Shown piece by piece: positions 7,764-21,141 of a stretch of DNA of 49,044 bases (position 1 is its first letter; each line of letters starts with the position of its first letter). Source of the stretch: an uncultured Clostridia bacterium (GTDB lineage: Bacteria; Bacillota; Clostridia; Christensenellales; Borkfalkiaceae); the NCBI GenBank assembly GCA_944372525.1, contig CALVZL010000003.1:1-49044 (forward strand), given 5' to 3'. The notes under the pieces are model-generated. The model made no database searches and was not told where the DNA came from. It saw only the letters and a list, made by a program, of their open reading frames with translations. The position numbers were made by a program, and so were the translations under genes.

Positions 7764-10700
7764 ATGTACGAATTAAACGATTTCAATTCTATTCAGATCA
7801 GTGTGGCATCTCCCGAAAAAATCAGGGAATGGTCTTACGGTGAAGTTACCAAACCGGAGACGATCAATTATCGGACGCAGAAACCGGAGCGGGACGGACT
7901 GTTCTGTGAGAAAATTTTTGGTCCCACCAAAGACTGGGAATGCCACTGCGGAAAATACAAGCGTATTCGTTATAAGGGAATCATCTGCGAAAAGTGCGGC
8001 GTCGAGGTGACGCGCGCCAAAGTGCGCCGCGAACGCATGGGACATATCGAGCTCGCCGCACCCGTATCGCATATCTGGTATTTTCGCGGCGTGCCGAGCA
8101 AGATCGGACTTTTGCTCGACATGAGCCCGAGAAATCTCGAACAGGTCATCTATTTCGCGGCGTATGTCGTATTGGAACCCGGCACGACGGGGTTGGAATA
8201 CAAGAGCGTCATCAACGATAAGGAACTTCGCGACATCGAAGAGACGATGGGCGAGAACACGGGACTGAAAGTCGGCATGGGTGCGGAGGCGATCCGCGAA
8301 CTGCTGATGGCGCTCGATCTCGACAAAGAGAGCGAGGCTGCCAAAGAGATTATCGCCAACAATGCGACGGGACCCAAGCGGGTCAAGGCGATCAAACGGA
8401 TGGAGATCATCGAGGCGTTCCGTAAGAGCGGAAACCGCCCCGAATGGATGATTCTGACCGTGCTGCCCGTCATTCCGCCCGATCTTCGTCCGATGGTGCA
8501 GCTTGACGGCGGAAGATTTGCTTCTTCCGATCTCAACGATCTGTATCGCCGCGTGATCAACCGCAATAACCGGCTCAAGAGAATGATCGAGCTCGGCGCG
8601 CCCGAGATGATCATTAAAAACGAAAAGAGAATGCTGCAGGAGGCGGTGGATGCGCTCATCGACAACGGGAGGCGGGGAAAACCGCTCAGCGGACCTTCCA
8701 ATCGCGAGCTGAAGTCCCTTTCCGGGTTGTTGCGCGGCAAGCAGGGACGGTTCCGTCAGAATTTGCTGGGGAAGCGCGTCGACTATTCCGGCCGTTCGGT
8801 GATCGTTGTCGGTCCGGAACTGAAGATCTATCAGTGCGGACTGCCCAAGGAAATGGCGATCGAACTCTTCAAGCCCTTTGTCATGAAGCGGCTGGTCGAG
8901 ACAAACAAATGCCACAACATCAAGAGCGCAAAACGCACGGTGGAAAAGGCGAAGGATTTCGTATGGGATGTGCTCGAAGAAGTCATCAAAGATCATCCCG
9001 TGCTGCTCAACCGCGCGCCGACGCTGCACCGGCTCTCCATTCAGGCGTTTGAGCCCGTGCTCATCGAGGGAAGAGCGATCAAGATCTCGCCGCTCGTCTG
9101 CGGTCCTTTCAATGCGGACTTTGACGGCGATCAGATGGCGGTTCACCTTCCGCTTTCCATCGAAGCGCAGGCGGAAGCGAGATTCCTTATGCTCTCGGCG
9201 AACAATATTCTGAAACTCGCCGACGGAAAATCGGTCATGAGCCCCACGCAGGACATGATCATCGGCGCTTACTATCTTACCATTCTCCGCCGCGAGGAGG
9301 GGAAACGGTACGACGCGCAGGGCAGACCGTCCGAGGACGGAGAAGTCTATGTTCCGCCCGTATTCGCCTCCTTCGACGAAGCGCTCATGAGCTATCAGCT
9401 CAAAGATCTGCACTGTCAGGACGAGATCTATGTCCGCCGTACGGTGGCGCTGCCTGTCGAAAAGTTTGAAGATCTGCCTCTTCCTTACGACAAGACCTTT
9501 GCGCGGGACGAAAACGTCCCCAACAACGGAATCCGCGGTCATGTGACCGTTCAGCGGGACGAAAAGGGCGTTCTCTCGGTGACGGGCGTGATCAAGACCA
9601 CGGTCGGCAGAATCATTTATAACGACGGAATGCCGCAGGATCTCGGGTTTGTCAAGCGCGAGACGCCGGAGGATTATCTCAAGCTCGAGCTTTCGACCGA
9701 ATTTATCGGCGGTGCGCGTGCAATCGGAAAGAAACATCTTTCCCGTATCGTTGAGGCTTGTTTCAAGACGGGATATGCGCCTAAGGCTTCCGCCGTCCTC
9801 GATGCGATCAAAGAGAGGGGATACAAATACTCTACGCTTGCGGCGCTCACGACGTCCGTCTTCGACATGAAGATCCCCGAAGAGAAGAATCAGATCGTCG
9901 CGGATGCGGAAGAACAGGTCGCAAAAATCTCCAAGAAATTCTCCCGCGGTCTTCTGAAAGAGGACGAACGCTATCATGCGGTGATCGACGTCTGGGACGC
10001 AGCGACGGACAAAGTCGCCGCCATTCTCAAGGAACAGGGCGTGCGGGATAAGTTCAATCCCATCTGGATGATGGCGGATTCCGGGGCGCGCGGTTCGATC
10101 GACCAGATCAAGCAGCTTTCCGGCATGCGCGGCCTGATGGTGAACCCGCAGGGCAAGAAGATCGAAGTTCCCGTCAAGTCCTGTTTCCGAAACGGACTTT
10201 CCGTTCTCGAATACTTCATTTCTTCGCACGGCGGCAGAAAAGGACTTGCCGACACCGCGCTCAAGACGGCGGACTCCGGTTATCTTACGCGGCGTCTTGT
10301 CGATGTCTCGCAGGACGTCATCGTGCGGGAAGAAGATTGCTCGGCGGGCAAACGTCCTCGCGGCACCGTTGTCAGCGCCATCATCGGTCCCAACGGCGAA
10401 CTCATCGAGTCCCTCGAAGATCGCCTTACGGGCAGATTTGCGGCGGAAGATCTGATCGACGAGGCGACGGGCGAGGTGGTCGTTCCCTGCAACGAGATGA
10501 TTACGGAAGAGAACGCAAAACGGCTTGCCGCCATGGAGAAATACAAGGATGGCGTAAATATCCGTTCGATCTTTAACTGCACGACGCGCAACGGCGTGTG
10601 CGCAAAATGCTACGGAAAGAATATGGCGACGACGATGCCCATCAAAGTCGGCGAGGCGGTCGGCGTCATCGCGGCGCAGTCCATCGGTGAACCCGGTACG

Positions 10701-11528
10701 CAGCTTACGATGAGAACTTTCCATACGGGCGGCATCGCGGCAACGGGCGACATTACGCAAGGTCTTCCCCGAGTCGAGGAATTGTTTGAGGCGAGAAAAC
10801 CCAAGGGCGTTGCGACGATCTGTGAATTCCAGGGCGTTGTGTCGGTGGACAACAGCGACAACCTCAACCACATCTTCATCAATGAAGAGGGGACGAACGT
10901 TGTACTCAAAGAATATGTGCTTCCCTTCAACGCAGAGCTGAAAGTGCGCACGGGGGATAAAGTCAAACCCGGAGATCTTCTCAACGCAGGTTCTGTGAAT
11001 CCGCAGGATATCATTCGCGTCGAAGGCGTGAAAGGGGTGCAGGATTATATCCTCGAACAGGTTCAATCCGTCTATCGGTCTCAGGGCGTCGACATCAACG
11101 ACAAACACGTCGAGATCATTGTTCGCCAGATGCTCAGGAAAGTCCGCATTGAAAATGCGGGTACGACGGATATGCTGCCCGGTCAGCTGGTCGATATGTT
11201 CACGTTCGAAGAACAGAACGAAAAGACCATCCAGGCGGGCGGAGTTCCCGCTACGGCGAAACGAGTGCTGCTCGGCATTACAAAGGCTGCGCTTGCGACC
11301 GATTCCTTCCTGTCCGCCGCTTCGTTCCAGGAGACTTCTCGGGTGTTGACGGAGGCGGCGATCTGCACAAAACGCGATCCGCTCATCGGGCTCAAAGAGA
11401 ATGTCATCATCGGAAAACTCATTCCCGCCGGGACCGGGATGAAGGAGTACAAGAATGTTTCCGTCCAGACGTCTGGTCGCTATAACGACGTCATGGTGGA
11501 CGAATCTGTCGCGGCAGGCGACGAATAA
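7764..11528 (+). CDS. rpoC: RNA polymerase beta-prime subunit
   Basis: The beta-prime subunit carries the active-site magnesium and clamp of RNA polymerase. The 1254-residue length is near normal for Bacillota. The N-terminal zinc ribbon has C60, C62, C75 and C78. The absolutely conserved NADFDGD motif is at 450-456, its three Asp residues holding the catalytic Mg2+. A second zinc-binding region with the Cys-rich sequence [11 protein letters not shown] and the trigger-loop region ([16 protein letters not shown]) are both intact. GGGAGG precedes the ATG, 15 nt after the rpoB stop, so the two subunits are co-translated. A terminator follows at 11540. Confidence 0.98.
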
Positions 11529-11539
11529 TCGGACCGAAG

Positions 11540-11568
11540 GGGCGTTCCGCGTGCGCGGACGCCCTTTT
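11540..11568 (+). terminator. Rho-independent terminator after rpoC
   Basis: GGGCGTTCCGCG and CGCGGACGCCC pair with one bulged T, then TTTT. It lies 12 nt after the rpoC stop and 27 nt before the adenine deaminase start. No new promoter is obvious between them, so ade may depend on read-through. Confidence 0.7.
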
Positions 11569-11594
11569 CCCTTGATCGGACAGGAGAAAACGAG

Positions 11595-13292
11595 ATGAAA
11601 CGACTGCTCAGAAATGCAAATATTGTCAACGTGTTTACCGATGAAATCGAACAGGCGGATGTCCTTACGGAAGACGGGATCATCGTCGGCGTGGGAGATT
11701 ATCACGACTGCGAAGCGGATGGGACGGAGGATCTGACGGGAAAATATCTTGCGCCGGGTCTCATTGACGGGCATATCCACATCGAGAGCACGATGCTTCT
11801 TCCTCCCGAGTTTGCGCGCGTGTGTGCACTTCACGGCACTTCCGCGGTCGTTGCGGATCCGCATGAGATCGCCAATGTCTGCGGGGAAGACGGGATTTCC
11901 TATATGCTCCGCATGAGCGAAAAACTTCCCATAGATATTTTTTACGCATTGCCTTCTTGCGTACCCGCAACGGAATACGAGGAATCCGGTGCGGAGCTGG
12001 GAGCGGATCGGCTCGCCCCTTTTTACAAGGAGCAACGCGTGATCGCGTTGGGGGAAGTGATGAATTATGTCGGGGTCATTGCGCGCGACGGCGAACTGCT
12101 TAAAAAAATTGCGGACGCGAAGGCTTTCGGACGGGTGATCAACGGGCATGCGCCTCTGTTGTCGGGGAGAGCGCTCGACCGATATGTCGCCGTCGGCGTG
12201 GGAGATGACCATGAGTGTTCCGTGTTGGACGAGGCACTGGAAAAGCTCCGCAAAGGACAGCGGATCATGATCCGTCAGGGGACGGCTGCACGCAATCTGG
12301 AAGCGCTTCTTCCGCTCTTTGACGAGCCGTATTCCCGCCGCTGTCTGCTGGTGACGGACGATAAACACCCTGCCGATCTGCTTTCCGGCGGGCACATTGA
12401 CGAGATCATCCGCCGTGCTGCAAAGGCGGGCAAGAGTCCCGTCGCGGGGATCCGCATGGGGAGCATCCAGGCGGCGGAATATTACGGATTGAAGGGGATG
12501 GGAGCAGTAGCACCCGGCTATGCGGCGGACATGATGGTTCTCGACGATCTGCAAACCATGACCGTGCGGGACGTCTATCATCGCGGGGAAAAGGTCGTAT
12601 GTTGCGGCAGAGTGGAGGAATTTTCTCTTCCGTCTGCGGGTGCGGCGCTCGAACGCAGGGTGCGCGATACCTTCCGCCTTGCGCCGCTTTGCGAACGGGA
12701 TTTTCTTATTCCTCCCGAGAAAGGGTTTTGCCGCGTGATCGCAACCCGAAAGGGAGAGCTGATCACGGAAGAACGGCGCATGACGTTGGATTTTTCTGTC
12801 GGGAACGGGATCGACGTCGGACGGGATATTCTTAAAATTGCGGTCATAGAGCGCCATAACAATACGGGACACAAAGGGATCGGCTTCCTCACGGGGATCG
12901 GACTCAAACGAGGGGCGATCGCCTCGTCCGTTGCGCACGATTCTCATAATCTGATCGTAATGGGCACGAACGAAGCGGATATGGCGTTTGCCGCAAACCG
13001 CCTGCGGGAACTGGGAGGGGGATATCTTGCCGTTGCGGACGGAACCGTTCTTGCGGAAATGCCTCTTCCCGTCGCCGGACTGATGACGGATGCGACGGCA
13101 CAGGAGGCGGCGGCGCAGAACCGTGCGCTGAAAGAGTGCGTGAAGGAAATGGGGGTGCCGGAGGGCGTTGAGCCCTTTATGACGATGGCTTTCGTAAGCC
13201 TTTCGGTCATTCCGCATCTCAAACTTACGACAACAGGACTTGTAAACGTCGATCGGCAGGAATCGGTTTCTCTTTTCTCGGACGAAAATTGA
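11595..13292 (+). CDS. ade: Adenine deaminase
   Basis: Adenine deaminase hydrolyses adenine to hypoxanthine and ammonia in purine salvage. The 565-residue length is usual for the AdeC-type amidohydrolase family. The metal-binding HIHIES motif has H60 and H62 after the LAPGLIDG lead-in, followed by the family-typical VADPHEIANVCG; later GHAPLLSG and a conserved C-terminal domain (NRLRELGGGYLAVADG) support the call over other cyclic amidohydrolases. AGGAG lies 8 nt before the ATG. The gene follows the rpoC terminator and ends in a strong terminator of its own. No purine riboswitch is visible in the short upstream gap. Confidence 0.93.
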   Translation: MKRLLRNANIVNVFTDEIEQADVLTEDGIIVGVGDYHDCEADGTEDLTGKYLAPGLIDGHIHIESTMLLPPEFARVCALHGTSAVVADPHEIANVCGEDGISYMLRMSEKLPIDIFYALPSCVPATEYEESGAELGADRLAPFYKEQRVIALGEVMNYVGVIARDGELLKKIADAKAFGRVINGHAPLLSGRALDRYVAVGVGDDHECSVLDEALEKLRKGQRIMIRQGTAARNLEALLPLFDEPYSRRCLLVTDDKHPADLLSGGHIDEIIRRAAKAGKSPVAGIRMGSIQAAEYYGLKGMGAVAPGYAADMMVLDDLQTMTVRDVYHRGEKVVCCGRVEEFSLPSAGAALERRVRDTFRLAPLCERDFLIPPEKGFCRVIATRKGELITEERRMTLDFSVGNGIDVGRDILKIAVIERHNNTGHKGIGFLTGIGLKRGAIASSVAHDSHNLIVMGTNEADMAFAANRLRELGGGYLAVADGTVLAEMPLPVAGLMTDATAQEAAAQNRALKECVKEMGVPEGVEPFMTMAFVSLSVIPHLKLTTTGLVNVDRQESVSLFSDEN

Positions 13293-13354: not shown

Positions 13355-13447
13355 GAAAAAAACAAGAAAAAAATTTTTCTTTTTTCCAACAAAATAAGCC
13401 GTCCGATTGTTATATGAGTGTAAACAACAGGAAACGGAGGTTTGATT

Positions 13448-14536
13448 ATGAAAAAAAGAGGGATTTTGGCAGTTGTGGCACTTGCGGGAGTATCGGTCTT
13501 TGCTTTGGCGTCCTGCGGACAGAATTTTCTGTACAGCGGCGACATGAAGGGAAGTACGAAACCGGGCCTTTATGAAGGGCTTGAGAGCAAGGAAGGTATT
13601 TATGGACTTGGCGCAATCACAACAAGTGCTTTGCTCGAAACTGCGACGGGAACGACGGGCGGCGAGACCACGGGCGGCGAAACGACGGGCGGCGAGACCA
13701 CGGGCGGCGAGACCACGGGCGGCGAAACGACGCAATTGCCCGAGCAGCCTTCTTCGGAAAAAGAGGAAGCGGATGATTTTCAGAAGTATCTGTCCATGAT
13801 CGAAGAGCTGTTTCGGGGAGATCTTCTTACAACAAAGGTAACGGACAATACCTCGACGGATGCGGCTTACTCAAACTATACCTATTGCATGACGGTCAAC
13901 GGGAAGGACTTCGGCGGAGAGAACGTGCAGCACGTATTCTTCTATAACGAAACGCTGGTCGTTTCCGAAACGGAGCGGGACTATGATCGCGACGACGCAG
14001 AGACGGAGGTGAAAACTTATGAGCACTATATGATTTCCGGCATCATGATCTCGGGCGGGACGCAGTATCTGATGGAGGGAGTGCGCACGGCGGAGACGGA
14101 GCAGGAAGGGAAGGAGTTTGAAACGAAAAACGAATTTACCGTCCGTGCCTATCAGAATGAAGATAAGACGGGATACTCGGTCTCGATGACCTATGAAGAG
14201 GAGCTGTCTTCGGAGCGGAACGAAAGCGAGACGGAGCGCAGTTATACGTACTGCACTTATCTCGGCCGCGAGCTGATTGAAAAGACGAAAGTTGAATTCT
14301 CCGACGAGACGGAGGGCGGAAAACAGGAGACGGAATATGAAGTTATGTTCCTGAGCGGAGCTTCGAGGGGAAGTTACGAGATCGAACGGGAGATCGTGAA
14401 CGGAAGAGAACGGCTCAAGGTCAGCTATAACATCGACGGAGCGCGCGGAGAGTATTACGTCACGGAAAAAAACGGAGAGTATTTCTATACTTTTTCAGAT
14501 AATACGCATAAGAGCTATTCATGGGGCAAAAGATAA
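13448..14536 (+). CDS. Lipoprotein paralogous to the adjacent anti-sigma ectodomain
   Basis: A 362-residue secreted lipoprotein of no named family. The signal peptide ends in the lipobox LASC, giving a lipidated C23. A flexible segment includes five tandem TTGGE pentapeptides around residues 70-94. Residues from about 135 to the end form a beta-rich, Glu/Thr-rich domain. That domain is clearly homologous to the extracellular part of the protein at 15114-16295: shared features include YGLGAITT/YAMGAVTT before the domain, HVFFYNETLV/HVMYYTETLV, a GG-T-Y-L-G-R-T block, and KVSYNIDGARGEY/KVSYQIGSERGEF near the end. CGGAGG lies 7 nt before the ATG. It probably takes part in the signalling of the sigma/anti-sigma pair downstream; its ligand is unknown. 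Confidence 0.85.
   Translation: MKKRGILAVVALAGVSVFALASCGQNFLYSGDMKGSTKPGLYEGLESKEGIYGLGAITTSALLETATGTTGGETTGGETTGGETTGGETTGGETTQLPEQPSSEKEEADDFQKYLSMIEELFRGDLLTTKVTDNTSTDAAYSNYTYCMTVNGKDFGGENVQHVFFYNETLVVSETERDYDRDDAETEVKTYEHYMISGIMISGGTQYLMEGVRTAETEQEGKEFETKNEFTVRAYQNEDKTGYSVSMTYEEELSSERNESETERSYTYCTYLGRELIEKTKVEFSDETEGGKQETEYEVMFLSGASRGSYEIEREIVNGRERLKVSYNIDGARGEYYVTEKNGEYFYTFSDNTHKSYSWGKR
13655..13729 (+). repeat. Five tandem 15-bp repeats inside the lipoprotein gene
   Basis: Five in-frame copies of ACGGGCGGCGAGACC (two of them ending AAACG) encode repeated Thr-Gly-Gly-Glu-Thr. The unit length keeps the frame, so slippage would lengthen or shorten a linker between the lipid anchor and the folded domain without breaking the protein. 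Confidence 0.95.
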
Positions 14537-14540
14537 CAGC

Positions 14541-14569
14541 TTGACAGAACGGGCCGGATCTGTTACAAT
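14541..14569 (+). promoter_or_regulatory. SigA-type promoter for the ECF sigma operon
   Basis: TTGACA and TACAAT are separated by exactly 17 nt, beginning 4 nt after the lipoprotein stop and 33 nt before the GTG start of the sigma gene. The sigma/anti-sigma pair can therefore be made by the housekeeping polymerase, independently of the lipoprotein gene. Confidence 0.85.
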
Positions 14570-14601
14570 GAACCGAGCTGGTTTGTGCGGAGGGAAAACA
14601 G

Positions 14602-15117
14602 GTGGGGCTCGATAACCAGATGACGAAATTGGCTGCGGGCGATATGTCGGCGTTTGACGAGATCTATCGGGAGACGAAGGGGGCGGTATATTATATCGCT
14701 CTCTCCGTCGTGCGGGAGAGAATGCTCGCGGAAGACGTGATGCAGAACTGTTATCTGAAGGTGATCGGAAACGCCTCCCGTTATCGGAGCGGCAGCAATG
14801 CGCTTGCGTGGATTGCTAAGATCGCGAGGAATGAGGCGCTCAACATGACCAAAAAGCGCTCTCGCGAATATTCCGTAGACGAACGGGAACAGGCGGCGAT
14901 TTTCGGGACACAGGATCACGGCGACTACGGCGCGCTGACCGACCTTGCGAGAAAGATCTTGTCTGCCGATGAGTTCTCCATTCTGATTCTTGTCGCGGCG
15001 GAAAAATACAAGCGGCGGGAAGTTGCGCAGATGCTGGATATGCCGATCGCAACAGTGACCTGGAGATACAATCGGGCGATCGCAAAGATGAAAAAGGTTC
15101 TGAAGGAGGAAAGATGA
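14602..15117 (+). CDS. ECF-family RNA polymerase sigma factor
   Basis: A 171-residue group IV (extracytoplasmic function) sigma factor. Region 2 spans about residues 8-80 (FDEIYRETKGAVYYIALSVV, then AEDVMQNCYLKVI, the typical polymerase-binding and -10 helix). Region 4 spans about 115-165 and ends in a helix-turn-helix (YKRREVAQMLDMPIATVTWRYNRAIAKMKK) that reads the -35. No region 1.1 or 3 is present, as expected. The start is GTG with GGAGGG 7 nt upstream. Its stop overlaps the next gene by ATGA, the standard arrangement of sigma with cognate anti-sigma. The promoter upstream is SigA-like; I found no convincing ECF-type promoter, so its targets are not apparent. Confidence 0.9.
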   Translation: MGLDNQMTKLAAGDMSAFDEIYRETKGAVYYIALSVVRERMLAEDVMQNCYLKVIGNASRYRSGSNALAWIAKIARNEALNMTKKRSREYSVDEREQAAIFGTQDHGDYGALTDLARKILSADEFSILILVAAEKYKRREVAQMLDMPIATVTWRYNRAIAKMKKVLKEER

Positions 15118-16295
15118 AGCGCAGAGATATTGAAGAGATCCTTCGGCGGGAAGCGGAAGAACATCAGCCTCCCGAAGTCTATGACAAGGTAATCAAGGCG
15201 CTTCCGAAGGAGGGCGCCGTGGGGAAAGATATCCGTGCGGAAGAAGGGCGGCGTGCCGGGAGTTCGCGAGCGGGAAAGAGGATATGGAAGCAGGTTGCCG
15301 TTCTCTGCGCCTGTTTGGCGCTCTGTCTTGCGGTAACGCTTCCCTTTGCCCTGCAAGAAACTTCCGCTCCCGGCCCCGGGCCGGTCGTCGACGGAGGGGA
15401 TCCTCCCGGCGGTTCCGCGGTCGTGCTCTCTTCTGCAGAACAGGTGTATGCAATGGGTGCAGTGACGACGGCAAGCCTGCTTTCGAGCGAGTTTTCGGGG
15501 GGGACCGCTGCAACGGCTGCGACGGCTTTGTCCGTGCAGAAAACGGTTGCGGGAACGATGCTTCGTTCCGTTTCGGTAAAATCGGACTTGCAGGTTTCAT
15601 TTGAAGCGGAGCAGTTCCATTGCTATTTTCTGATGCTTGACGGAATTTTCGGCGACGAAGTCGTGACGACTTCCGCCGTACAAAATACAGACGAAGCATA
15701 TGCCCAATATGAGATCAAACTCACTGTGACGGGGATGGATATGAACGGCGCGGCGGTGTCTCACGTCATGTATTATACCGAGACACTCGTAAAGGAAGAG
15801 ACGGAAAAGAGGGAATCCGAGCGGGAGTATTCGCTGGTCGGCGTGATGCTCTTCGGCGGCACGGAGTATGCTCTTCGGGGAGAGCGCACGGAGGAATCGG
15901 AAAAAAACGAAGAAGAAAACGAATTAAAGATCCGCGCTTATCCGGACGAAAACGATCGCAGAAATTATGTCCAGATGGAACAGGAGACGTCTTCGGAGAC
16001 GGGAGAGAAGGAGACGGAATATGTCTATACCGTAGTGCGCGACGGCGAGGTGGCGGAGGAGATTTCCGTTGAGTTCGAATCGGAAACGGAACACGGAAAG
16101 ACGCAGATCGAGTATGAGCTGGAATTCATAAGCGGAACACGGGAGGAGGTCTATCGGATTTCCCATGAGGACGGGGGGAACGGAATGAAAGTTTCCTATC
16201 AAATCGGTTCCGAACGAGGAGAATTTCACATCGAAAAAAGGGCAGACGGAAGTTACCTGTATCGCTTTTCGGACGGAACGACGGAAGTTTTTTGA
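15114..16295 (+). CDS. Membrane-anchored anti-sigma-like protein with lipoprotein-related outer domain
   Basis: A 393-residue protein in three parts. Residues 1-57 are charged and cytoplasmic (MKRRDIEEILRREAEEHQPP start), the size of an anti-sigma domain, though I see no zinc-binding ZAS motif. Residues about 59-80 are a transmembrane helix. The rest is outside the cell: a Pro/Gly linker, a Thr/Ala-rich stretch, then a beta-rich domain homologous to most of the lipoprotein encoded just upstream. It overlaps the ECF sigma gene by ATGA with AAGGAGGAAAG before the start, so the two are translationally coupled. By position and topology it most likely holds the sigma factor inactive until the outer domain senses something. 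Function is inferred from context, not from a named family. Confidence 0.75.
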   Translation: MKRRDIEEILRREAEEHQPPEVYDKVIKALPKEGAVGKDIRAEEGRRAGSSRAGKRIWKQVAVLCACLALCLAVTLPFALQETSAPGPGPVVDGGDPPGGSAVVLSSAEQVYAMGAVTTASLLSSEFSGGTAATAATALSVQKTVAGTMLRSVSVKSDLQVSFEAEQFHCYFLMLDGIFGDEVVTTSAVQNTDEAYAQYEIKLTVTGMDMNGAAVSHVMYYTETLVKEETEKRESEREYSLVGVMLFGGTEYALRGERTEESEKNEEENELKIRAYPDENDRRNYVQMEQETSSETGEKETEYVYTVVRDGEVAEEISVEFESETEHGKTQIEYELEFISGTREEVYRISHEDGGNGMKVSYQIGSERGEFHIEKRADGSYLYRFSDGTTEVF

Positions 16296-16474: not shown

Positions 16475-17254
16475 GTGAAGGAAGAAATCGTACGGGCAGA
16501 GGGCTTGCGAAAGACCTTTTCCCTTTCCAAAAAACAGCAAAAAATCGAGAAGACGCATCAGGCGATGAAGGTGGCGGTAGACGGATTGTCGTTTTCCGCC
16601 TATCGGGGAGAGATCTACGGACTTTTGGGACCGAACGGCGCGGGAAAGACGACGACGCTGCGGATGCTCTCCACGCTCATTCGCCCCGATGAGGGAGACG
16701 CCTTTCTCTGCGGGAAATCCATTGTGAAAGAGGCGCAGGCGGTGCGCGACTGTATCGGTTTTATGACAGGGGAACTCAAATTGGAGAGTTTCTTCACGCC
16801 CGATTATCTGTTCGACTTTTTCGGAATGATGCACGGCATGGCAAAAGACGCCGTTGCGGAGCGCAAACGCGAGCTCTTCCATCGCTTCGGCATTGACCGC
16901 TTTGCCGGCGTTCGCGTCGGGGATTTGTCTTCCGGCATGAAGCAGAAAGTCTCTCTCGTCATCTCCATCGTTCACGATCCGGAAATCGTCATCTTTGACG
17001 AACCGACGAACGGGCTGGACGTGCTGACTGCCAAAGTTGTAACCGATTTTTTGGCAGAACTGCGGGGTATGGGCAAGAGCGTCATTCTCTCCACACACAT
17101 TTTTTCTCTGGTGGAAAAGCTGTGCGATCGCGTCGGCGTCATCGTCGAAGGAAAAATGTTACGTGAGGGCTCGCTTGCCGAAATCATGGACGGACGTTCG
17201 CTGGAAGAGCGCTTTTTTGAACTATACCTTGCAACGGGAGGGGTTCTGCAATGA
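16475..17254 (+). CDS. ABC transporter ATPase, NatA-like
   Basis: A 259-residue ATP-binding subunit that powers an exporter together with the permease just downstream. Walker A is GPNGAGKTT at 52-60, the ABC signature is LSSGMKQK near 151-158, Walker B with the catalytic Glu is VIFDEPTNGLD near 173-183, and the switch His follows in STHIFS. The family resemblance is to NatA/ABC-2 type exporters, whose substrates vary from Na+ to antibiotics and peptides; nothing here fixes the substrate. An insertion after strand 1 (SKKQQKIEKTHQ) is typical of the NatA subgroup. The start is GTG with AAGGAG 5 nt upstream. The stop overlaps the permease start by ATGA. Confidence 0.9.
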   Translation: MKEEIVRAEGLRKTFSLSKKQQKIEKTHQAMKVAVDGLSFSAYRGEIYGLLGPNGAGKTTTLRMLSTLIRPDEGDAFLCGKSIVKEAQAVRDCIGFMTGELKLESFFTPDYLFDFFGMMHGMAKDAVAERKRELFHRFGIDRFAGVRVGDLSSGMKQKVSLVISIVHDPEIVIFDEPTNGLDVLTAKVVTDFLAELRGMGKSVILSTHIFSLVEKLCDRVGVIVEGKMLREGSLAEIMDGRSLEERFFELYLATGGVLQ

Positions 17255-18426
17255 AACTTGCCGCACTCATCAAAAAAGAATTTTTCCGCTTTTTCCGCGA
17301 TCCCAAGCTGATTGCGACGATGATCCTTCCCGGGATCCTCATCTTTTTTCTCTATTCGCTGATGGGGGATCTCCTGTGGAGCGAGGAGCAAAAATATGAC
17401 TTCAAGACGGTGTACGTCGGCGGCGAGTCTGCCATCATTCAGCCGCTTTTGCAACAGGCTGCGGTGCAGCTGACGGGACAGGAGGATTGGACACTGACGC
17501 CCGCCGAGGATGTCGAACAGGCGAAAGAAGCGGTTCGCGAAGAAAAGGCGACAGCGCTGATTCTCTTTGACGAAAATTTTGACGAGCGAATCCTGTCCTA
17601 TTCTCCGGAAAGCGGAGAGCGTGCGCCGCAGGTTCGGATTTATTATTGTTCTGCCGATGAGACGAGCGCGGCGTTCTATTCGCTGGCGATCTCCGTGCTG
17701 GACGCATATGAGAGCACCGTTTCCAATATGTTTGACGTCAATCTTTCGGATGAGGTGTTTGATTTTTCTTCCGAGGCCGATGTTCTGGTGTCGTTGTTGG
17801 GCGGATTCCTGCCCTTCCTGATCGTTGCGCTCATCTTCTCTTCCTGCATGAGCATTACGCTCGAATCGGTGGCGGGAGAGAAGGAGCGGGGCACGCTTGC
17901 CACTGTCCTTGTGACATCGGTCCGTCGTTCGGATATCGCGTTGGGGAAAGTCATTCCGCTCAGCTGCATATCCGTGATCGGCGCACTCTCCAGTTTTCTC
18001 GGGGTCATCTTCAGTTTTCCCAAGCTCATGGGGATATCTGTTTCCGGTATGGCGGGGGCCTTCGGAATTTCCAGCTATTTGCAGCTTTTGCTCTCCGTAT
18101 GCAGTGTCGTGCCCTTCATCGTCGCGCTGCTTACCCTGGTGTCCGCTTATTCGAAGTCGGTCAAGGAAGCTTCGGCGTATTCCGGCGTCGTCATGATCTT
18201 CGTCATGGTGTTGTCTCTTGCTGCCGGAATCGTCGACATGAACGGACTCTGGGTGGCATTTGTCCCCGTTTTGGGTACGGTTTCTTGCATCAGCCGGATT
18301 ATGGATCTGTCTGTCACTCTCGGGATGACGTTGCTCACAGTCGGCGTGAATTTGGTCTATACGGTAGTGCTGATCTTTCTGATTGCAAAGATGCTTTCGA
18401 GCGAACGGATCATGTTCGGGAAGTGA
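17251..18426 (+). CDS. ABC-2 family transporter permease, NatB-like
   Basis: A 391-residue membrane subunit partnering the ATPase upstream, with which it overlaps by ATGA. The N-terminus KKEFFRFFRDPKLI leads into a first transmembrane helix at about 23-42; a large extracellular domain spans about 45-185; five or so further helices follow from about 188 to 385 (including LLGGFLPFLIVALIFSSCMSI and a KERGTLATVLVTSVRR coupling segment after it). This is the NatB/ABC-2 half-transporter layout. Because the operon has its own SigA promoter and terminator it is not clearly tied to the sigma module beside it, although a link through the sigma factor is possible. Confidence 0.88.
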   Translation: MKLAALIKKEFFRFFRDPKLIATMILPGILIFFLYSLMGDLLWSEEQKYDFKTVYVGGESAIIQPLLQQAAVQLTGQEDWTLTPAEDVEQAKEAVREEKATALILFDENFDERILSYSPESGERAPQVRIYYCSADETSAAFYSLAISVLDAYESTVSNMFDVNLSDEVFDFSSEADVLVSLLGGFLPFLIVALIFSSCMSITLESVAGEKERGTLATVLVTSVRRSDIALGKVIPLSCISVIGALSSFLGVIFSFPKLMGISVSGMAGAFGISSYLQLLLSVCSVVPFIVALLTLVSAYSKSVKEASAYSGVVMIFVMVLSLAAGIVDMNGLWVAFVPVLGTVSCISRIMDLSVTLGMTLLTVGVNLVYTVVLIFLIAKMLSSERIMFGK

Positions 18427-18561: not shown

Positions 18562-21141
18562 ATGAATGCCAATGTATATACACAGAAATCGTTGCAGGCG
18601 ATCCAGGAGGCGCAAAATCTCGCGACGGAGTACGGGAACAACGAACTCACCTGTACGCATCTTTGCTGCGCGCTCCTCGAGCGGGACGGCCTGATTTGGC
18701 GTATTATGAACCGGATCGGCGTGGACGCCTCGGGATTTTCCCGTGCCGTTCAGGATGAGACGGAGCGGCTGCCCCGCGTTTCCGGATCCGGAGCGGGTCA
18801 GGTGTATGCCGCTGCCTCGTTCACGCGGCTTCTGAGCGAAGCGGAACGGCTGGCAAAGAGCATGAAGGACGATTACGTCTCGGTGGAACATCTTTTTCTC
18901 TGTCTGTTTGACAATGCGGACAGTCGGCTGGAAGAGGTCTTTCGTCGGTTCGGCGTGACCAAAGACAAATTTCTGAAGGGGCTCAAAGAGGTGCGCGGGA
19001 ATCAGAACGTAAAGAGCGATAATCCGGAGGAATCTTACGAAGCGCTCGAGAAGTACGGCGCGGATCTCACGAAACGAGCGCGCGAACATAAGCTGGAGCC
19101 CGTGATCGGACGGGATGAAGAGATCCGCAATGTGATCCGCATTCTTTCGAGAAAGACCAAAAACAATCCCGTGCTCATCGGCGAGCCGGGCGTGGGAAAG
19201 ACGGCGATCGCCGAAGGGCTTGCACAGCGGATCGTCAAGGGCGACGTGCCGGAGGGCTTGAAGAACAAGACGCTCTTTTCCCTGGATATGGGCGCGCTGA
19301 TCGCGGGCGCTAAATATCGCGGAGAATTTGAGGAACGGCTCAAGGCGGTTCTGGAAGAAGTGACGAAGTCCGAAGGGCGGATTTTGCTCTTTGTCGACGA
19401 ATTGCATACTGTCGTGGGCGCGGGAAAAACCGAAGGCGCCATGGACGCGGGCAACCTGCTCAAACCGCTTCTTGCGCGGGGAGAGTTGCATTGCATCGGC
19501 GCAACGACGCTTGACGAATACAGAAAATACATCGAGAAGGATGCGGCGCTGGAACGGCGGTTCCAGCCCGTGATGGTGGGGGAGCCTTCCGTGGAGGATA
19601 CGATTTCCATTCTGCGCGGATTGAAAGAGCGCTTTGAGATCTTTCACGGCGTACGCATTCACGACGACGCGCTGGTCGCCGCGGCGACGCTTTCCAACCG
19701 CTATATCACGGATCGGTTTCTGCCCGACAAGGCGATCGACCTTGTCGACGAGGCGGCGGCGATGATCCGCACGGAGATCGATTCCATGCCCTCGGATATG
19801 GATGCGCTGCACCGCAAAATCGTTCAGCTGCAGGTGGAGGAAAAAGCACTATCGAAAGAGAAAGACAATCTCTCTGTCGCGCGCTACGAAGCGCTTCGGA
19901 AGGAGCTTGCCGAACTGCAGGAGAAGTTCGACGTCATGAAGGCAAAGTGGGAGGACGAAAAAAATGCCATTCGTTCCGAAAAGGAGCTGAAAGAGAAAAT
20001 TGACGAGGTGAAGGGCGAGATCGATTCCGCCACCAACCGCGGCGAATACGAAAAGGCGTCTCGCCTCAAATACGGGGATCTCGCCACGCTGGAGGCGCAG
20101 CTCGAACAGGCGAAGAAGAATGTGAGCGGGCGGGAAAACGCTCTCTTGCAGGACGAGGTAACGGAGGAAGAGATCAACCGTATTGTGGCGCGCTGGACGG
20201 GGATTCCCGTGGCAAGACTCAAGGAGGGGGAACGCGAAAAACTGTTGCGGCTTCCCGAGCAGTTGCATCGGCGGGTCGTCGGACAGGATGAAGCGGTCGA
20301 AAAAGTCTCGGAGGCGATTTTGCGTTCCCGCGCGGGGATCTCCGATCCCAATCGGCCCATCGGTTCGTTCCTTTTTCTCGGGCCGACCGGTGTCGGGAAG
20401 ACGGAACTTGCCAAGTCGCTTGCGGAAAATCTGTTTGACGACGAAAAAAATATCGTTCGGATCGATATGTCCGAATATATGGAAAAGTTTTCGGTCTCCC
20501 GTCTGCTGGGAGCGCCTCCCGGATATGTCGAATACGAAGAGTGCGGCACGCTCACGGAGGCGGTCCTCAGAAGCCCGTATTCCATCGTATTGTTCGACGA
20601 GATCGAAAAAGCACATCCCGACGTGTTCAATATTTTGCTTCAGATCTTGGATGACGGCCGCGTGACGGACTCGCAGGGAAGAACGGTGGATTTTAAAAAT
20701 ACGATCATCATCCTCACCTCCAACCTCGGATCCGAGATCATCATGGAGGGGATCGAGGAAGGGGATATTTCCAAGTCGGCGCGGGAAAAGGTCGGAGAAT
20801 TGCTCAAGCGCTCCTTCCGTCCGGAGTTCCTCAACCGTTTGGACGAAATTATCATGTTTAAGCCGCTGACGCAGGAGAATATCGGGGCGATCGTCGATAT
20901 TTTGCTCGAACGTCTGCGCAACCGTCTGAAGGCGGAACACCTCAATCTCGAAGTGACCAATCGGGCGAAAGAATACATCGTTGACTACGGGTACGACAGC
21001 GTGTACGGAGCCCGTCCGCTCAAGAGGTTTATTCAGTCTCATGCGGAGACGCCGATCGCCAAGTATATGATCGCGGAAAATCCCGAGGCGGGGAGCACGA
21101 TCACACTGGACGCTGACGTCAACGGACTTTGTCTCAGATAA
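18562..21141 (+). CDS. clpB: ClpB-type AAA+ disaggregase
   Basis: An 859-residue Hsp100 chaperone that threads aggregated proteins through its pore with DnaK. Order: N-terminal Clp repeat domain 1 to about 145; first AAA+ domain with Walker A GEPGVGKT at 207-214; a long coiled-coil middle domain about 400-525, which distinguishes ClpB from ClpC; second AAA+ domain with Walker A GPTGVGKT at 607-614; and a C-terminal domain. The absence of an obvious ClpP-binding loop also favours ClpB. Odd point: the second-domain pore loop, GYVGYEEGG in the usual family, reads GYVEYEECG at 654-662, although the central Tyr is kept. GGGAGG precedes the ATG. Confidence 0.93.

Follow-up and report, generated by a model that had tools for sequence, protein, structure and literature searches.

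A 49,044-nucleotide stretch of the genome of an uncultured Clostridia bacterium (GenBank assembly GCA_944372525.1, contig CALVZL010000003.1, positions 1 to 49,044; hereafter the window) encodes, at positions 13448 to 16295, a lipoprotein (P0001), an extracytoplasmic function (ECF) sigma factor (P0002) and a membrane-spanning anti-sigma factor (P0003), with the lipoprotein and the anti-sigma factor sharing an extracytoplasmic domain, termed X here. With a probability of about 0.5, these genes form a self-contained homeostatic ECF circuit that controls its own lipoprotein, and in which the sensor and the product share a ligand or contact one another. The main argument for this function is the evolutionary pattern, as the same pairing of X-bearing proteins appears, from sequence comparison, to have arisen repeatedly.

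The lipoprotein gene (13448..14536, as all features of the module on the + strand) was delineated from its open reading frame of 362 amino acids and its lipobox. The product appears to be a bacterial lipoprotein, with a hydrophobic signal peptide ending in LASC at residue 23 (lipobox L20-A-S-C23, 13505..13516) and a predicted lipidated Cys23. The sigma factor gene (14602..15117; GTG start, 171 amino acids) and the anti-sigma factor gene (15114..16295; 393 amino acids) overlap by ATGA at 15114-15117, and the boundaries of the module and this coupling are exactly as the original prediction, made from the sequence, had placed them. Its claim that the upstream lipoprotein carries the outer domain of the anti-sigma factor is borne out by homology, with 37 % of residues identical in a 311-residue alignment of the outer domains of P0001 and P0003 (E 2e-42). 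Domain X covers nearly the whole mature lipoprotein; its short motif (IYGLGAITTSALL in P0001 and VYAMGAVTTASLL in P0003) is joined through a variable linker to a beta domain. Over 21 aligned sequences, Y112, A116, L122 and L123 of the short motif are invariant, and V117, T118 and T119 nearly so. The conserved motif of P0003 (SSAEQVYAMGAVTTASLL) is encoded at 15429..15482, while the linker of P0001, which runs from the short motif to the beta domain, contains a TGGET repeat (13651..13732), as detected with Tandem Repeats Finder. Residues 185-392 of P0003, which make up its X beta domain (15666..16289), are all beta in an AlphaFold2 model based on 37 sequences (whole-protein predicted local distance difference test score (pLDDT) 75.6; predicted template modelling score (pTM) 0.65). 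From residue 181 onwards, the mean pLDDT is at least 86 in 20 of 22 ten-residue blocks, with values of 83 and 78 in the other two.

The shared domain matched no known family in profile, sequence and Foldseek searches. These include profile searches with X against Pfam and NCBIfam, a comparison with the Protein Data Bank (PDB) by sequence, and a Pfam search with P0003 that returned no family at E <= 1. The top Foldseek matches are generic beta barrels, and the matches to the VtrA/VtrC bile sensor (E 0.15-0.38) were rejected as too weak. Domain X is strongly acidic, with a median net charge of -43 among 69 ectodomains; it probably binds an extracytoplasmic ligand and, as a guess, its acidity would suit a cationic one. 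A search with P0003 as query located X in 71 of the 103 genomes of the genus. Searches at the contig level gave no match with P0003 alone and 38 loci with an alignment (A1). A third copy of X was not found in the assembly, which is 88.7 % complete.

P0002 is of the ECF type, with scores of 47.1 bits against PF04542 (cut-off 24) and 61.5 bits against TIGR02937 (cut-off 42.9), while region 4 (PF08281) falls below the cut-off (20.2 versus 25.7 bits). P0003 has one clearly hydrophobic segment, a single transmembrane span at approximately residues 56-78 by hydropathy (15279..15347). Its residues 1-55 contain no cysteine and one histidine and do not match the Hx3Cx2C (ZAS) pattern, in line with the earlier observation that the anti-sigma factor lacks a zinc motif. 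Class I anti-sigma domains without zinc are described in the part of the literature consulted (PMC7406223). Relatives of this pair provide evidence for the sigma-facing part. Fifteen relatives (L043, L044, L045, L046, L052, L054, L056, L060, L061, L088, L089, L091, L092, L093 and L100) encode the sigma and anti-sigma factors as one open frame of 422-541 amino acids, and these fusions are taken as real because they are found in many separately assembled genomes. A segment resembling ELERELRREAEEHTPDVYDRV follows sigma region 4 in the fused relatives, and the N-terminus of P0003 aligns right behind the sigma factor in several of them; for example, residues 2-97 align to residues 180-266 of L043. 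The cytoplasmic residues 1-57 (15114..15284; helices at residues 3-17 and 20-29 in the model) thus stand as the predicted sigma-binding region, as the original prediction had proposed. A model of a fused sigma-anti-sigma protein has a pTM of 0.43, and portions of it are similar to ECF sigma factors and to Bacillus subtilis RsgI (8t9n; TM score 0.73 by target, E 1.4e-3). P0002 and P0003 very probably form a sigma/anti-sigma pair, in agreement with the ATGA overlap and the fusions. All fifteen fusion junctions contain GGAGG with an in-frame GTG, ATG or TTG behind it (fourteen identified by script and L091 by eye), and therefore free anti-sigma factor may also be made, so that the fused relatives may yield both a tethered sigma factor and a free anti-sigma factor. 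In the fused L089 (copy L119) there is no transmembrane stretch in the alignment.

The lipoprotein gene is preceded by an ECF-type promoter (CCAACAAAATAAGCCGTCCGATTGTTATA, 13386..13414; CCAACA-N16-TGTTATA), the -35 element of which contains AAC. The strict form of the motif (CCAACAA-N15-YGTTRTA) matches the draft assembly of the window at this site only. With a slightly looser pattern, and among 62 lipoprotein genes preceded by 100 or more bases of sequence (L038 excluded), the motif was found ahead of 48/49 lipoprotein genes with a linked sigma factor gene and 1/13 of those without. The single motif-bearing gene without a sigma factor gene (L042) is on a contig whose end cuts through a sigma factor open reading frame (G011:C81:2-112), while the single sigma-linked gene without the motif (L078), which belongs to another family, has the motif ahead of its sigma factor gene. 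A near-strict pattern gave 46 matches in 783 kb of loci, all ahead of X lipoproteins, with L062 counted among these although listed as an extra match, as its open reading frame start is too long. The sigma factor gene is absent from 10/59 tree rows, which represent four independent losses, and the motif was lost in all four. Because the motif tracks the linked sigma factor gene, the lipoprotein is very probably the target, and the main target, of this sigma factor. The original prediction of a free lipid-anchored copy of the sensor domain stands as far as the copy is concerned, with the lipoprotein very probably being the sigma factor's own target as well.

Among the 103 genomes of the genus, 59 strict sites occur in 54 genomes, as opposed to thirteen for the reversed pattern, and 47/59 have an X gene no more than 2 kb away. 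The twelve sites away from X genes are about as many as the thirteen control matches, and further regulon members were dropped as candidates. In this motif survey of the genus, the lipoprotein is the sole target seen for the sigma factor. A whole-genome search of ten genomes without the linked gene yielded distant sigma factor matches in seven (best E 1.8e-15 to 4e-4) and none in G020, G048 and G121, while matches in genomes with the linked gene, cut genes aside, have E-values of 2.4e-37 or better. The X lipoprotein is retained without a sigma factor gene at ten loci (L039, L040, L041, L048, L049, L053, L059, L071, L103 and L104), and at some sigma-less loci the motif gives way to a housekeeping-like promoter, such as TTGACA-17-TACAAT at L071. 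The sigma and anti-sigma factor genes of the window themselves have a housekeeping-type promoter, TTGACA-17-TACAAT (14541..14569), immediately downstream of the stop codon of P0001. It shares 11/12 consensus bases, with none of 100 shuffled sequences as good. A site sharing at least 10/12 consensus bases is likewise present at 41 of the 44 non-divergent sigma factor genes in the genus set.

On the basis of this promoter sequence and the fused relatives, transcription from the housekeeping promoter would keep a standing pool of sigma factor bound to the membrane anti-sigma factor, with residues 1-57 of P0003 holding it at the membrane. Loading of the anti-sigma X with ligand would trigger regulated proteolysis and free the sigma factor. 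An M50 site-2 protease is encoded in the genome, and may act in this proteolysis. The freed sigma factor would then transcribe the lipoprotein gene, and the lipoprotein would take up the same ligand, or bind the sensor, and so shut the circuit off. The first half of this scheme, from sigma factor retention and release to transcription of the lipoprotein gene, is suggested by sequence and comparative evidence. Domain X of the anti-sigma factor is probably the input domain, while the odds of feedback through a shared ligand are put slightly short of even.

The outer half of the anti-sigma factor varies within the genus. Among 42 anti-sigma factors of the genus set, 28 match the RsgI_M domain (PF23750; E <= 1e-3) and eight, including that of the window, carry X. 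Neither P0003 nor L085 matches RsgI_M; L036, L047, L061, L078 and L096 each pass the cut-off singly, as do L199 and L209 of other families, and the shortened L086 fails it. In L086 (5930-6304; G019) the anti-sigma frame ends soon after the transmembrane segment, with a leucine-rich-repeat-like protein behind it in another frame, as seen by eye. L096 (5120-6939; G000, contig C11) includes a second ECF sigma factor of that genome, with the adjoining anti-sigma factor being the one that passes the RsgI_M cut-off. Long poly-aspartate C-terminal tails, outside by topology, were observed on RsgI-type anti-sigma factors (e.g. L047 4141-5106 and L065 7463-8497) and on the divergent X type (L055 and L057). 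Domain X occupies the place where relatives carry the unrelated RsgI_M, and the outer half looks exchangeable. The order lipoprotein X, sigma factor, anti-sigma X is shared by the window, G115 (L085) and UBA11940 (L105). Six congeners (G001, G027, G035, G056, G102 and G114) have X on both proteins with the lipoprotein gene divergent, and in all six the motif is also found ahead of the sigma factor gene.

The pairing extends beyond the genus. A profile of 21 X proteins, searched against 396 genomes of the order (E <= 1e-3), matched 90, seven of which appear to have only weak N-terminal matches. An X anti-sigma factor behind a sigma factor gene, paired with an X lipoprotein, occurs in 29 of these 90 genomes (26 order regions, L080, the window and G115), distributed over families f1, f3, f6, f19, f24 and f32; forty order regions were taken, mostly for two matches side by side, and layout counts thus refer to a non-random sample. 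Elsewhere, X lipoproteins are paired with an anti-sigma factor matching the RsgI_M profile (e.g. L199, L205, L206 and L209). At L199, L200 and L201, two X genes with no sigma factor gene between them lie behind a sigma factor gene and an anti-sigma factor of the RsgI_M profile. The motif precedes the lipoprotein gene in 20/27 twin loci of the order and the sigma factor gene in 17/27, against 0.024 matches expected per 260 bases. The X pairing is thus a recurrent module that is widespread in the order, and not a one-off.

When 102 X domains (73 rows from the order and 29 from the genus) are placed in one tree, the anti-sigma/lipoprotein label requires eight changes, at least seven of which are forced by well-supported branches, and none of 200 bootstrap trees gives a single origin. 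A single origin of the eight X anti-sigma factors was likewise rejected for the genus tree (approximately unbiased (AU) test, p 0.0067). The window anti-sigma X does not group beside P0001, and instead nests in a nine-row group (support 98/97) otherwise composed of lipoproteins and the G115 anti-sigma factor, with G019 nearest (49 %). The window and G115 anti-sigma factors are compatible with one clade (AU p 0.197), while one clade of all three window-type anti-sigma factors has a p-value of 0.028 in the X tree and 0.066 in the sigma tree. These clade tests do not fix how many times X was captured in the vicinity of the window. A label change alone does not give the direction of exchange. The first view, in which RsgI_M was ancestral and the window represented a local replacement, was given up as the order search showed an old X-type clade, and for the same reason the direction is left open outside the window's own clade.

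Several observations weigh against the circuit as proposed. Within the genus set, 34/42 anti-sigma factors are without X, and X is therefore not needed as input there. P0001 is a long branch in the tree, which accounts for the identity of only 37 % between the X copies of the window, and these two copies may have diverged in ligand. The four sigma factor losses are too few events for significance (sign test, p 0.125). Across the order, the motif is absent at L080, ahead of seven of the 27 twin lipoprotein genes, including all four f24 loci, and ahead of 10/11 lipoprotein genes in sigma loci without an X anti-sigma factor, while L203 has the motif with no sigma factor gene within the stretch examined. 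Furthermore, Foldseek gave no PDB match for X at E <= 1e-3, leaving it without a recognisable fold, and the host genome is a draft of 88.7 % completeness.

The same evidence bears on three other readings of the shared domain. In one, which seems on the unlikely side, the contact is homotypic: the lipoprotein binds the anti-sigma X and shields it from the first cleavage, as RseB does on RseA, so that the circuit gauges the supply or trafficking of its own product. Consistent with this, the anti-sigma factor seems to have acquired X from lipoproteins more than once, and in places from the cognate one. The anti-sigma X of L174 is sister to the L174 lipoprotein (99/95), and that of L105 joins its own lipoprotein in the smaller tree (100/99), although the L105 anti-sigma and lipoprotein domains fall in a wider unresolved group in the larger tree. 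Distances among anti-sigma and lipoprotein X domains also correlate beyond those of the sigma factors (partial r 0.47, a value reached in 1 of 999 permutations; based on 20 of the 27 twin loci), which is weak evidence and may be leftover shared ancestry. Most anti-sigma factors of the genus set, however, lack X even though the lipoprotein is kept.

If X had no signalling meaning, it would be no more than a cap outside the cytoplasm, passed between neighbouring genes through local duplication or gene conversion, with the signal entering elsewhere. Neighbouring genes favour such copying, and the position of X where relatives have the unrelated RsgI_M agrees with an outer half that is readily exchanged. 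The supported label changes (at least seven), the X anti-sigma factors in six families and the long-lived parallel clades of anti-sigma and lipoprotein X nevertheless exceed what neutral copying would leave, and this reading is improbable. Highly improbable, too, is that the RsgI mode has been kept, with the anti-sigma X cleaving itself in the manner of the RsgI periplasmic domain and a ligand pulling the halves apart. The RsgI cleavage bond is Asn-Pro, and P0003 has no Asn-Pro, nor was PF23750 found in it. In favour of this mode, X replaces RsgI_M, the autocleavage of which starts RsgI signalling, according to the part of the source seen (PMC12203970). The preferred reading remains the homeostatic circuit, in which X serves both the sensor and the product.

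Comparison with described systems shows partial likeness to several. RsiV, which pairs with SigV, has an outer domain that binds extracellular lysozyme and is cleaved upon binding; it is alike in being an anti-sigma factor with an outer sensor domain, but P0003 has no DUF3298 or DUF4163 match. The RsgI/SigI systems of Bacillus and Clostridium thermocellum resemble the window in the single-pass anti-sigma factor with an exchangeable outer sensor. In contrast, P0003 is without RsgI_M, its partner matches ECF models and is not a SigI, a single lipoprotein target is seen instead of an enzyme regulon, and the sensor corresponds to almost all of the target ectodomain. In the portions of the sources consulted, the outer modules of C. 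thermocellum RsgI proteins include CBM3, CBM42, PA14 and GH10 (PMC12203970), and the genes named as under SigI control include ones with carbohydrate-binding (CBM) and glycoside hydrolase (GH) modules (PMC6056542). The RseA-RseB/RpoE system of E. coli similarly combines an ECF sigma factor, a membrane anti-sigma factor and an extracytoplasmic partner. The RseB gene is part of the rpoE operon, with no RseB-RseA homology mentioned in the excerpt consulted (PMC8103513), whereas the window partner and anti-sigma factor share a domain. The fused relatives resemble IutY of Pseudomonas putida, described as having an ECF domain and an anti-sigma domain in one polypeptide (PMC5411451); IutY answers a siderophore via a cell-surface signalling receptor. 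The window genes are two overlapping, unfused genes, and the fusions in their relatives, unlike IutY, keep an internal start. Among the open-licence PubMed Central papers searched, no description was found of a sigma/anti-sigma system with its sensor domain also present in the target lipoprotein, and such a system may be described elsewhere.

Upstream of the module are rpoC (7764-11528) and an adenine deaminase gene (11595-13292), and of the 54 lipoprotein loci for which more than 1.5 kb of upstream sequence is available, 38 have rpoC at most 3 kb upstream and in the same orientation. An open frame of 1814 codons on the - strand (7773-13217), opposite rpoC and the adenine deaminase gene, is most likely a shadow frame arising from coding bias. 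Downstream, at 16475-18426 and 18562-21141, an ABC-2 type transporter pair and a ClpB-like ATPase are encoded.

How an ECF anti-sigma factor gets its sensor is seldom visible, and the anti-sigma factors here appear to have repeatedly drawn theirs from the class of protein under their control. The shared pairing in relatives suggests a built-in feedback loop. More tentatively, a transmembrane regulator may sense the condition of the protein it controls by carrying that protein's ectodomain itself, with the circuit measuring free product-binding capacity at the cell surface; this design would have been reached repeatedly in one order, with X and the RsgI-type sensor exchanged in the same place. 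The RsgI type, the X type and the fused sigma factors form a natural series for studying sensor exchange, and X itself is an uncharacterised extracytoplasmic domain present in at least six families of one Clostridia order. As the regulon appears in this genus to consist of one gene, ligand discovery becomes tractable, with the ligand of the lipoprotein being the likely inducer of the circuit, or the reverse.

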